The position numbers and the translations under genes are program-made. Under the pieces are notes generated by a model, which had not been told where the DNA came from, did not search any database, and saw only the letters and a program-made list of their open reading frames with translations. DNA of 64,000 bases from assembly GCA_011109175.1 (NCBI GenBank), contig RDEW01000004.1, positions 334,030-398,029 of the forward strand, read 5' to 3'. Shown here in pieces: positions 6,057 to 54,501 of this stretch (positions are counted from its first letter, which is position 1; each line of letters opens with the position of its first letter). Source of the DNA: Dicyema japonicum. Its lineage: Eukaryota > Dicyemida > Rhombozoa > Dicyemidae.

Positions 6057-7638
6057 ATGGTTTTGTGCTCCTTAATATTTTAGGGCGCTAATCACTCTTC
6101 CTTCGACAAAGAGGACCAGGTATAGACATTTATGTATTAATTTAGCAACAAAAGAAAAAAAGCAAAGAGGAACCAATTCCAACCAGATTTGGTAAGAAAA
6201 AAGTATACTATCGTGGACCCCAAGCTGCCCTCAAAATAAACACCGGTAATTCATATTTAGACTTTCAAGTGACCCCTCAAACTCGATGTCGGCTTCGATA
6301 TCTTCGCCTGGACCACATAAAGGAGTTTCTTCACCTGGAGGAGGAGTTCCTTAGTGACCAGGACCGCAAAGAGGCATTCGAAGAACTTAAGCAAGTACAC
6401 ATTATTTAAATATTTTATTTATTTATGAATATTTTAAGATGATTTTATATTTTTTAATAAAAATATCCTTTAAAGGAAGAACGTTCGAGAGTTGACGATT
6501 TGCGAGGATCCCCCATTTCCGTCGGCTCATTGGAAGAGATCATTGACGACAACCACGCTATTGTATCGACCTCTGTGGGCTCTGAGCACTATGTGAGAAT
6601 TTTGTCTTTTGTGGACAAGGAACAATTACAGCCCGGGTGCACAGTGATGCTGAACCACAAAGTAAACGAATATCTTTCAAGTAGTCCTATGCTGTCGTTG
6701 GGATCCTATTGGATGACATTGACCCTACAGTGAACGTTATGAAGTTGGAAAAGGCTCCAAAGGAGACCTACGCAGATATTGGGGGGTTGGAGACGCAAAT
6801 TCAGGAGATCAAGGAGTCGGTAGAGCTTCCATTGACCCACCCTGAGTTGTATCAGGACATGGGGATAAAGTCCCCCAAGGGAGTCATCCTCTATGGTCTC
6901 CAGGGACCGGTTTTTTTGGGAATTCTGATTTTTAGGGAAAACTTTGCTGGTAAAAGCTGTGGCTAACCAAACTTCGGCGACTTTTCTGCGCGTTGTGGGG
7001 TCAGAGTTGATTCAGAAGTATATGGTTGTCAGTTATCTTCACTTCTAAGGGTGAGGGACCAAAGCTGGTGAGGGAATTGTTTAGAGTGGCCGAAGAGTGT
7101 GCCCCCTCCATAATATTTATAGATGAGATCGATGCTGTGGGGACTAAACGGTACTATCGCCTTGTTATCCGAGATATGACTCTAATTCTGGTGGAGAGAG
7201 GGAGATTCAGAGGACGATGTTGGAGTTACTTAACCAGTTGGATGGATTTGATTCGATGGGTGACGTTAAGGTATGGATTGAGTGTTTATTTAGGTGATCA
7301 TGGCGACTAATCGGATTGAGACGTTAGACCCAGCATTGATTAGGCCTGGAAGAATTGATAGGAAGATAGAGTTTCCACTACCGGATGAAAATACTCGACG
7401 GAGAATATTCGCAATCCACACAGGGAAGATGAATTTGGGTGAAGATGTGAACCTGGAGGACTATGTAACAGCTAAGGATGACTTGTCTGGGTCGGATGTG
7501 AAGGCTATTTGTACTGAGGCAGGATTACTAGCATTGAGAGAGAGGAGGACGAAAGTTATAAAGCAAGACTTTGATAAGGCTAAACAGTCTGTTCTATTTA
7601 AAAAGAAAGAAGGGCTGCCTGAGAATCTATATATGTAG
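6057..7638 (+). CDS. PSMC1: 26S proteasome regulatory ATPase Rpt2 (PSMC1), ten exons
   Basis: AAA+ ATPase of the 19S proteasome base, which unfolds ubiquitylated substrates and gates the 20S core. Ten exons follow the family end to end when nine introns are removed: 6060-6083, 6120-6145, 6246-6269, 6395-6475, 6662-6684, 6910-6935, 7025-7049, 7151-7173 and 7271-7293 (24, 26, 24, 81, 23, 26, 25, 23 and 23 nt). The first coding exon is the ATG alone, then MGANH as in MGQSQ of animal Rpt2. Visible parts are the basic N-tail, [18 protein letters not shown], the OB-fold [20 protein letters not shown], Walker [14 protein letters not shown], the sensor [10 protein letters not shown], and a C-terminal LYM as an HbYX gate-opening motif. 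Predicted length is about 435 residues (human 440). The Walker A loop needs one more C near 6898 to read GPPGTGKT; as written the frame breaks there. This is probably a sequence error, otherwise a pseudogene. A possible AATAAA lies at 7807. Confidence 0.95.
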
Positions 7639-7920
7639 ATTAGGCTCTTTGGTTTTGATTTTGGTTATTTCACAAGTACAATCTTGTTTTTGATTTTATT
7701 AATTGCTATTATTTATTTTAATAGTCACCAATAATCAAGTTAACATTTGTGGAAATGTCTCCAGAGTGAGGGGGAACTTTATGGCATTCTGTCACACCTC
7801 TACTCTAATAAATAGGTAAATATAGAGAACCGAACGAAGGATATGGATTATATGTAAAATATTAACAATAATTTTTTTTTATTTAACCCCAAGACCACCA
7901 GGAAAGATAGGTCAAAACTA
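7639..7920. other. Rpt2 3' flank
   Basis: AT-rich 3' flanking sequence with an AATAAA at 7807-7812, about 170 bp after the stop codon. It leads straight into the 3' end of a minus-strand LINE. No gene seen. Confidence 0.5.
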
Positions 7921-9830
7921 ACTAATTAGGTGATCCGAACTCTCTTCATTTGATCTTCTGATGATCCAACCGCATTCCGTATGCGCCTATTCTTCCTTCT
8001 GCAAAGGAATTCAATCGGCGTGCCCTTTTTTATTACCGACCGAAATTCCTCTGCATGGCCAATGGGAATGTCCGTGTGGTGCATAATTTTCCGCCTGAGG
8101 GAGTTCAAACGGTGCACTCTCGAAGGGGGAATCGCAATTCTCCAAGCGGAGCAGGCATATTCAATGGTAGGTTCGATGACTTGTTGATAGACCTTGCTGT
8201 TGGTGACGCAAGCAGCAGGGGGAAAGGGCTCTTCTTTATCATCGCATTCAAAATGTTCCATTTCCGAAGACCCTTGGCAAGCACCTCCTCCACGTGACTC
8301 GAGAACGTCAACAGAGAGTCGAAAACTACACCAAGGATGTTCTGGTCCGCGTAGAAGGGATGGGAGTGTATATCTAAAGCCCACCTTTGAACCTTCTGTC
8401 CGTAGTGAATAATGTGAACTGAGACTTGAATGCTGATACACATAACATGTTTGCAGATAGCCAGTCACAAATTGAGTTTAGGTGTGTCTGAACAGTTGCT
8501 ACAGCCATGGAAGGAGATTTATCTCTTGCAGCGATAATTAGGTCGTCCGCATAGGATAAAAACATAGTGTCCTGGTCATTGGTAGTAGGTAGGTCATGTA
8601 GAAATAGGTTGAAAAGGAGAGGAGATAAAGGTGAGCCTTGCGGGACCCCATTGGGGGTAGTCTTGATTTTGAAGTGGTTTTGTCAATCCGGACCCTTCCG
8701 CGTCGTCCAGTTAAAAAGTTTTCCAGCCATAGCTTGATGTTTGGGTGTAAGTTCGAATTAAAAATCTTATGCGTTAGGAGTTTCCTCGGAACAGAATCAA
8801 AAGCCTTCTATATATCGATGGATACTAAGCCGTCCCTAAGTGTGTTCTCATGTTGAAGCCGTCAGTAATAAACTGGGATTTAGAACCCAAATGAGTCGTT
8901 ATAGAACGGTCTGCCCTGAAACCATGTTGAAACTCTGGTAGATGTAGAACAGGAGAAATGCGCATAAACACAAGCTTTTCCAGTACTTTTGATAAAACAC
9001 AAGTTATTGAGATTAAGAAGAGAGAACGTTTTTTGGATTTCTGGGCTTTAGGATTGGCGCAATCAGGGAGTTTTTCCATATATTAGGAAGCGTATAGTAG
9101 TTTATAGAGTCGTTGTACAGTCTTGATAGAATGGCCCTGATAACAAAGGTGTTTGAGGTGAATAGTGCAAATACCGTCGGGACCACAAGCACGAGTGGGA
9201 CGTAGCAATTGAATAGCCTTGTCAAAATCATGGGGGTGAAAAAGGTGGAATACGGTTCTTGTTGCGGCCGGCGCCGTTCAACAAGTGTAGAACGAGAAAA
9301 ATCTTTATGGCTGATCGATACGTAGTACTTCATAATCTTGTTTGCGAGTTTGCGGGCGGCTCTGAAGCGTTGCGGCCTCGGTTCCGAAGTCCTCCTCATT
9401 GATTAGGCTATTGATCCTTCTTAGCGTTTTCTAAAATGTGGCACAAGAGTTCTTGTGACATAGTCGTCCAACTAGGCGCCTCCATTTGAGTCTGTTGTTA
9501 GTTCGGATTAACTCAGATAATTTGGTATTCAGTAAACGTATGGAGTAGAAGGAGTTATTAGTCAGCGTTCTTTTCTTCTTCATCGCATCTCGCTTCTTGA
9601 TGAGTGACAATATTTGTGATGATAATCTTGGATTAAACTACTTGTAAGACAATGGGGTTATGGTCACTTGAGAAACCATAACGAACATTCCATGAAATAC
9701 ATCCAGCCATAGAAGGAGAGCAGAGGGACAGGTCCAGGGTTGTTGGACTGTCCCTTCTGCGGGACGGGGTCCTTGTGTGAGCGATGTACACGGTAAAGTC
9801 CCTCAGCGTCTTCAGTGGTTGTTAAATTAT
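7921..9830 (-). mobile_element. Decayed AP-endonuclease LINE, Jockey/CR1-like
   Basis: Read 5' to 3' on the minus strand. The end of an AP-endonuclease domain lies at about 9740-9640 (LDLSLCSPSM, then FSSDHNPIVL). RT sequence with LLRPTRACGPDGIC and PEFQHGFRADRSITTHL lies at about 9200-8850. A YADD box (MFLSYADDLIIAARDKS) is at about 8565, and a Jockey-type ILGVVFDSLLTFSSHV at about 8340. A C-terminal segment ends near 7926. Several frameshifts and stops make it inactive. No target site duplication was found. Confidence 0.8.
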
Positions 9831-53298: not shown

Positions 53299-53849
53299 TT
53301 TTTTGTTAGTTTCCTCAAGAATATGTAACGTCTTTTAGTTGACCTCGATTACTATTGTGTGAGGCAACACGTGTCAGAGATTGACATGTGCTATTCCCTT
53401 CTTATTTTCACTTATCCAATTCATTATGTTTTATCTTGGCTATTCACTTTGTAATCAAGTTACGAGACACATTCAAAAGGCAGATGTAGACTAAAGGAAG
53501 TATAAAATCATGATCTTTGCGTCTATTTAATTTGTTTGTTGTTTAGTGTACAATCCTCCATAACCCCCACATCCTTAGGGTTCCCGATTAATTATAACTA
53601 ATGATTTAGTATTCTTCAGTATAATAAACAATTTATTGACACATTTTGTAGCTTTGTAGCCAACTTATATAGGTTTGACACTCACGTGATTAGTATAGGA
53701 AGTCACCTCTTTATGAGAATAAGTGATAATATTCCTTTATAGTAACACTTTCATCAGCTATACAGGTGCCCCTAGTAACACATAATCAATAGAAACATTA
53801 AAAATGTTTAATTGTTAATGAAAATAACTTATTTTTACAAAATAATAGT
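53299..53849. other. Intergenic DNA
   Basis: No gene seen. Its right end is the 3' flank of ARL3, with minus-strand AATAAG just past the stop codon. Confidence 0.4.
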
Positions 53850-54501
53850 TCATTTTTTGATAATCTGCAAAATCCAGTCAAAACCCTCCTAAAATGACAA
53901 AAAAGGTGAACAGTCAATCCCTCATTGTTTTTGGCAGAACAAGATTGGATCTGCCAAGGATGACCCCTCAGTTTGGTCAAATCCAGCAAATTTACAATCT
54001 CTTCAGGTTTACAGGAAGTCATGAGATCTTTTTTATTACAAAATATTAGGATGGGGATATTCTTTAGTTCCTCTTCCTGGAGGATCTCAAACAATTCCTA
54101 AAAGTCTCTTAAATCTTACATAACCACTTTCTTCCATTCTATTTCTATTAGAACTGTCAATCACGTAAATCTAAAATAATTCAATAAATACCATAACGTC
54201 AGTGTTTTCCAAGTAGTTTCTCCAATATGGCCTAATTTTCCGTTGTCCCCTAATGTCCCAGACTGCCATGTTGAACCCCTTTTGACGGACGTTTTTATGT
54301 TGAATCCCTCAAAGATAGAATCACGGAATTACTAAGGTTGGAGATATGTTTGAAATGTTCTCTAAAGCTAAGGTTTTTAAGATTGTTGTTTTCCCGGCAT
54401 CATCAAGTCCGAGAAGTAAAATCCTTAAATTCTTTTTTCTTCCGAAAGAGAATCGACCCAAAAAGTCAAAAAATCCCTTATATAAGTATAATTACAACCA
54501 T
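53850..54501 (-). CDS. ARL3: ARF-like small GTPase ARL3, six exons
   Basis: Small GTPase that releases lipidated cargo from carriers such as PDE6D and UNC119, mainly in cilia. ATG at 54501 is followed at once by an intron. Introns 54477-54498, 54308-54332, 54171-54191, 54098-54119 and 53889-53911 (22, 25, 21, 22 and 23 nt) leave about 180 codons (human ARL3 182 residues). Nucleotide-binding motifs are GLDDAGKT (about residues 24-31), ISPTLGFNIK, WDIRGQ, NKKD and CSA. ARL3-type segments are [20 protein letters not shown] and [10 protein letters not shown]. The usual WDIGGQ glycine is Arg here, though DxxGQ is kept. A single G appears missing in the run at 54276-54279, since exon 3 otherwise fails to stay in frame. 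ARL2 is less likely, given the RKIRPYW and WQIQSCSA segments. Confidence 0.9.

Follow-up and report, generated by a model that had tools for sequence, protein, structure and literature searches.

Tiny GT-AG introns, mostly of 20-26 nucleotides, in a dicyemid genome with apparently standard splicing machinery

Introduction

Dicyemids are minute parasites of octopus and squid. The window described here is a 64 kb stretch of DNA (G000:C126:334030-398029) from a genome of 64.67 Mb in 191 contigs. It contains genes for Rpt2, RPE, ARL3, GCNT (two copies), MPP10, PAK1IP1 and an ENPP-like protein, several of which are interrupted by very short segments beginning with GT and ending with AG. An earlier note on this DNA attributed these segments to GT-AG introns of only 20-28 nucleotides (nt), 32 of which it placed in eight genes. 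Based on the sequence, we consider it about 95% probable that the segments belong to a dicyemid genome and are ordinary spliceosomal introns of the U2 type, most of them reduced to 20-26 nt. This reading is favored because of the GT-AG ends, the sharp length peak, the restoration of conserved proteins, the phases of the Pax6 introns and the matches to small nuclear RNAs (snRNAs) and splicing factors.

Introns in the window

Introns were placed with a purpose-written protein-to-DNA aligner that is blind to splice motifs: a gap of at least 12 nt, with any length and any ends, is opened at a single fixed cost, and frameshifts and residue gaps are also permitted. A gap was scored as GT-AG if these ends were present within 6 nt of the aligner placement. 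With human Rpt2, human RPE and ARL3 as references, 11 gaps were found in the window, 10 of them with GT-AG and with lengths of 21-26 nt. All five gaps in Rpt2 have these ends, at 6662-6684 (23 nt), 6910-6935 (26 nt, with a frame break directly upstream), 7025-7049 (25 nt), 7151-7173 (23 nt) and 7271-7293 (23 nt) on the forward strand. The same is true of the three gaps in ARL3, located at 54308-54332 (25 nt), 54171-54191 (21 nt) and 54098-54119 (22 nt) on the reverse strand. In RPE, on the forward strand, two of three gaps are GT-AG, at 10180-10203 (24 nt) and 10312-10336 (25 nt). The third, placed at 10479-10500 and reading GT..AA as placed, has the same length of 22 nt whichever of four references is used, its start varying from 10471 to 10479, and GT-AG is absent within 6 nt.

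For the N-terminus of Rpt2, aligned with a human N-terminus, the aligner added one 24 nt GT-AG intron at 6246-6269 (forward strand), bringing the tiny GT-AG introns placed by aligner to 11. Five more were placed by eye alone. Two of these lie in the same part of Rpt2, on the forward strand: a 24 nt GT-AG intron after the start codon (6060-6083), not placed by the aligner, and one of 26 nt (6120-6145), where the aligner gap is 29 nt without GT-AG. Another two, also GT-AG, are found in GCNT copy 1, with lengths of 25 nt (14329-14353) and 26 nt (14590-14615) on the forward strand; at both, the aligner preferred frameshifts. The fifth is a 24 nt GT-AG intron at 24501-24524 on the reverse strand, in the gene named MPP10 by the earlier note. 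Sixteen tiny introns were thus retraced in the window. The word "only" in the earlier claim proved too strict because longer introns exist: Rpt2 also carries one of about 81 nt (6395-6475, forward strand), where the aligner left a 78 nt gap without GT-AG in place and the GT-AG ends were set by eye, and introns of 47 and 68 nt occur elsewhere in the genome. The further claim that splicing restores the reading frame of each family was borne out in part. Once Rpt2 is spliced, 345 of 345 residues align with human PSMC1 and zero residue gaps are needed, although this query was assembled by eye and the aligner requires one frame break there; ARL3 also retains a frame break.

GCNT copy 2 (52766-53307, forward strand) is a duplicate of copy 1, with 95-98% identity over 449 and 104 nt. 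About 0.64 kb of its middle is absent, including the stretch in which copy 1 has both tiny introns.

A wider sample of introns

The aligner was also applied to a wider sample of 16 gene segments, in which a gap was kept if at least eight residues flanked it on both sides. Beyond the window, this sample comprised the Arf-family loci L001, L002, L003 and L007, Pax6 and three more Pax loci, and the genes for U2AF1, U2AF2, SF1 and Prp8; human references were used for U2AF1, U2AF2 and SF1. Excluded were two Arf-like loci (L004 and L008), GCNT (weak alignment), the Rpt2 N-terminus, L046 (a weak U2AF1-like match) and the badly aligned tails of L003 and L030. Altogether 59 gaps were obtained, three of which were removed because their flanks were too short; one of these, of 27 nt, has GT-AG, and the other two, of 19 and 12 nt, lack it. 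GT-AG was found at 48 of the 56 well-flanked gaps, compared with 3.46 expected when the same gap lengths were slid along the same stretches, and the proposal of spliceosomal introns close to the lower length limit is upheld by this count. The GT-AG gaps form a narrow class, 45 of 48 being 20-26 nt long and the remainder 31, 47 and 68 nt. The 46 introns shorter than 40 nt average 23.63 nt, with a standard deviation (SD) of 1.69.

Prp8 has a single match in the genome. After removal of 12 gaps of 20-25 nt, 11 of them with GT-AG, 655 of 710 residues (92%) are identical to human Prp8, with no frameshift.

Counts of motifs alone carried next to no signal, in our view because the coding share of the genome is too small. 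GT/AG spacing counts in the window gave no clear length peak. In a split-open-frame test over 264 kb, where the GC content is 36-38%, 54 of 1565 pairs had a spacing of 23 nt, a small rise over the 24-35 pairs counted for each other length in the range 20-28 nt. At 20-30 nt, GT-AG was barely the highest of the end pairs, with 206 per 10,000 against 155-202 for 17 others. A codon-usage gene finder was tried and set aside, with three models in each run.

Splice signals

Signal statistics were computed for the 46 introns shorter than 40 nt, in comparison with shuffled interiors or with 108 exonic GT..AG decoys. The 5' sites read AG|GT, with A or T as the next base. At position +5, G occurs in 21-22% of the introns, as against 25% of the decoys, and matches to CAGGTAAGT average 4.8 of 9. 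Toward the 3' end, A is more frequent than in shuffles at -7 (25 of 46, z 3.6) and -9 (22 of 46, z 2.6), and so is T at -3 (33 of 46, z 3.5) and -6 (z 2.6). The motif TGATT, one of 10 tried, was mildly enriched (6 of 46, against 1.9 with an SD of 1.3 in shuffles). We infer that the branch adenosine may lie between -7 and -9.

The best separator of introns from exonic decoys is T-richness, with an area under the curve (AUC) of 0.90 for T fraction, compared with 0.79 for the U1 match and 0.48 for G at +5; the exon side of the U1 match alone reaches 0.73. Exons showed no avoidance of GT..AG decoys, with 273 such decoys of 20-26 nt in the sense and 225 in the antisense direction.

Are the segments introns of a single genome?

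Several observations weigh against the reading preferred here. GT-AG is not in place at 8 of the 56 gaps. Three of the eight were reread by eye, as GC-AG of 23 nt in the Pax locus L034, as GT-AG of 21 nt in Pax6 and as GT-AG of 29 nt with one residue fewer in the Arf locus L002; the count of 48 of 56 was left as computed, without these rereadings. The others are in RPE, SF1, U2AF1 and Prp8, together with a gap of 15 nt within the linker of Pax6. Rpt2, ARL3, L004, L008, Pax6, L030 and U2AF2 all show breaks when set against the reading frame of their families. Among the splice signals, G at +5 is slightly more frequent than in shuffled interiors (10 of 46 against 5.3, z 2.1), so that U1 pairing at +5 is not wholly gone. 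Textbook branch motifs are no richer than in shuffles (6 of 46 against 8.2 for [CT]TAA[CT]; 1 of 46 against 1.3 for CTAA[CT]), and part of the difference in T between introns and exonic decoys is simply that of intron and coding composition. Prp8 (L043, on contig C87) stands apart in composition, with an exon GC content of 33% as against 38-50% in the 15 other segments and intron interiors of about 98% A+T.

Could the segments be insertions, sequencing errors or marks of gene decay instead of introns? The frame breaks fit such an origin, as do the single gaps of 22-23 nt without GT-AG in RPE and in SF1. Together with the N runs in the left flank of the window, the frame breaks do imply that the assembly has errors or that some copies have decayed. 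Errors would not, however, yield a tight class of 20-26 nt with GT-AG so far above expectation, nor would they interrupt a single-match gene such as Prp8 12 times and leave it 92% identical to the human protein in an unbroken frame. We therefore consider this origin very improbable for the segments as a whole, and retain the reading as introns.

The two Arf-like copies L004 and L008, on contig C159, are similar to each other and each has a frame break. Tiny GT-AG introns were not found in the well-aligned part of either, and the two are possible retrocopies.

The composition of Prp8 raises another question, namely whether the assembly is a mixture of two dicyemid species, with the Prp8 contig from the second. 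The low GC content of its exons and the extreme A+T content of its introns are what such a mixture might show. On the other hand, a repeat 3 kb from the Prp8 gene on contig C87 was found to have a counterpart on the window contig C126 (89.6% identity across 1,000 nt), although related species could share such a repeat. Omission of Prp8 also alters little, as the 35 remaining introns shorter than 40 nt average 23.86 nt. A mixture of species is thus unlikely, and introns of one dicyemid genome remain the preferred reading.

Dicyemid affinity

The attribution of the genome to a dicyemid, which the earlier note had offered, is sustained because Pax6 matches Dicyema acuticephalum Pax6 first (I7GPS3; 60% identity over 100% of the query, E 1.8e-114, in the best 120 of 7,036 matches); the second match, among the matches listed, has E 5.7e-95. 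The species is not D. acuticephalum, since Pax6 is just 60% identical. When shifted to GT-AG, the Pax6 introns have phase 0 in the paired domain and phases 1 and 0 in the homeodomain.

An organism of another kind with tiny introns, for example a ciliate, would also fit the lengths, as introns of 20-33 nt in Paramecium and 21-29 nt in Nyctotherus have been described (PMC2633312). The proteins point elsewhere. Besides the best match of Pax6, four Pax loci are present in the genome, Prp8 is close to its human counterpart and open under the standard code across the 710 aligned residues, and the organisms named for RPE are all animals in the best 120 of 7,896 matches. A ciliate or similar organism is accordingly a far-fetched explanation, and the introns are best assigned to a dicyemid.

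Splicing machinery in the genome

The earlier note had suggested looking for changes in U2AF, SF1 and the U1 and U2 snRNA genes; what was found is a set of proteins that align and of recognition sequences that are kept, apart from one U1 copy that is one base off. Searches for snRNAs covered U1, U2, U6 and U12. U1 gave 11 matches of 45.7-69.0 bits, every one below the Rfam cut-off of 69.5. Three of the four aligned copies keep ACUUACCUG near the 5' end, after two bases, and the fourth has ACUUACUUG, with one base different. U2 gave 25 matches, 22 of them above the cut-off, and both aligned copies carry GUGUAGUAUC. U6 gave 10 matches, nine above the cut-off, and the single copy read has ACAGAGA. 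U12 is represented by one match (C68:163471-163599; 85.4 bits against a cut-off of 53), so a minor spliceosome may have been kept even though the introns are tiny. Six of the U2 matches above the cut-off cluster on contig C115 within about 111 kb.

Against the human references, U2AF1 has 123 identities over 186 aligned residues, U2AF2 has 201 over 385 and SF1 has 98 over 164. Residues 3-61 of the SPF45 UHM query are matched, at 51% identity, by an SPF45-like exon. Judged by these alignments, the splicing machinery is apparently standard.

How might such short introns be recognized?

A working model can be outlined. Each intron may be recognized across its own length, i.e., by intron definition, to which we give roughly even odds. 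The 5' end would be read chiefly from the exonic AG preceding GT, because intronic complementarity to U1 past GT is weak. The branch adenosine would lie 7-9 nt away from the end of the intron, and four T-rich bases ahead of AG may stand in for the pyrimidine tract. The branch site would then occupy a common stretch of about 10 nt with the tract and the acceptor, on which SF1, U2 and U2AF could hardly bind simultaneously. They probably act in turn, or else SPF45 takes the place of U2AF; the latter is a guess by analogy with work on human introns (PMC8363638).

The composite picture would be of a standard machinery with an intact U1 recognition sequence, acting on 20-26 nt introns that have nearly lost 5' intronic complementarity to U1, are located through the exonic AG|GT, their T-richness, an A between -7 and -9 and a fixed length, and are shorter than the published dicyemid averages cited here. 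Taken as a whole, this picture is put forward tentatively, at rather less than even odds. Since SF1, both U2AF subunits, Prp8, U1, U2, U6, U12 and an SPF45-like exon were all matched, tiny introns in an animal seem to require neither factor loss nor changed U1 or U2 recognition sequences. A dicyemid may thus serve as a system for asking how a largely standard spliceosome handles an intron of 20-24 nt, a question that bears on minimal intron length.

Other features of the window

A reverse transcriptase domain (PF00078) is located at 1405-2158 on the forward strand, and more long reverse-transcriptase-like frames were noticed by eye, e.g., at 44021-45121 (reverse strand) and 17144-18156 (forward strand). 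The ENPP-like gene has an in-frame TGA at 47209-47211 (forward strand), between HGYN and HVAQMHPIF; by eye, these flanks resemble a conserved ENPP region, and the TGA may reflect an error, decay or recoding. A structure search with PAK1IP1 returned other WD-repeat or propeller chains and was uninformative on introns.

Comparison with known systems

Published accounts of tiny dicyemid introns go back to 2007, and the phenomenon is already known. What is added here is that the splicing components searched for are present and that the 5' signal of the introns is weak. The possibility that a different species would make this a new case does not apply at the level of the phylum, as dicyemid introns of about 26-27 nt have been published. 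In D. acuticephalum, introns of Pax6, Zic, actin and other genes were reported to measure 26.2 ± 1.9 nt (n = 16; PMC2222250). That set and the present one share the phylum, a uniform tiny length and the phases of three Pax6 introns, the published phases agreeing with 0, 1 and 0 here in a comparison of phases alone. The 46 introns of the present sample are shorter (23.6 ± 1.7 nt; Welch p 7.2e-5), in a comparison of small samples that is favored by dropping the 47 and 68 nt introns, with which the mean is about 25.0 nt.

A genome survey of Dicyema sp. gave a median intron of 27 nt, with about two thirds shorter than 30 nt and some longer (PMC6543705), much as here, where most are shorter than 30 nt and some longer ones occur; that survey refers to Ogino et al. 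2010 for 40 genes of D. japonicum. For the D. japonicum genome, a mean intron of 38.2 nt was reported, from an assembly published as 67.5 Mb in 377 scaffolds with 4.1% gaps and a GC content of 36.7% (PMC6736024). In the intron and splicing text of these two papers, analysis of splice sites or splicing factors is absent.

Outside the dicyemids, the SPF45-dependent short introns of human genes have a truncated pyrimidine tract (PMC8363638). They resemble the present introns in being short and in having a truncated tract, but the model intron there is 56 nt. Nyctotherus and Paramecium are protists, whereas the genome here is that of an animal. A branch motif was reported as not found in Nyctotherus, whose introns start with GTA and end with TAG (PMC2633312), while in the present introns position +3 is A or T alike.

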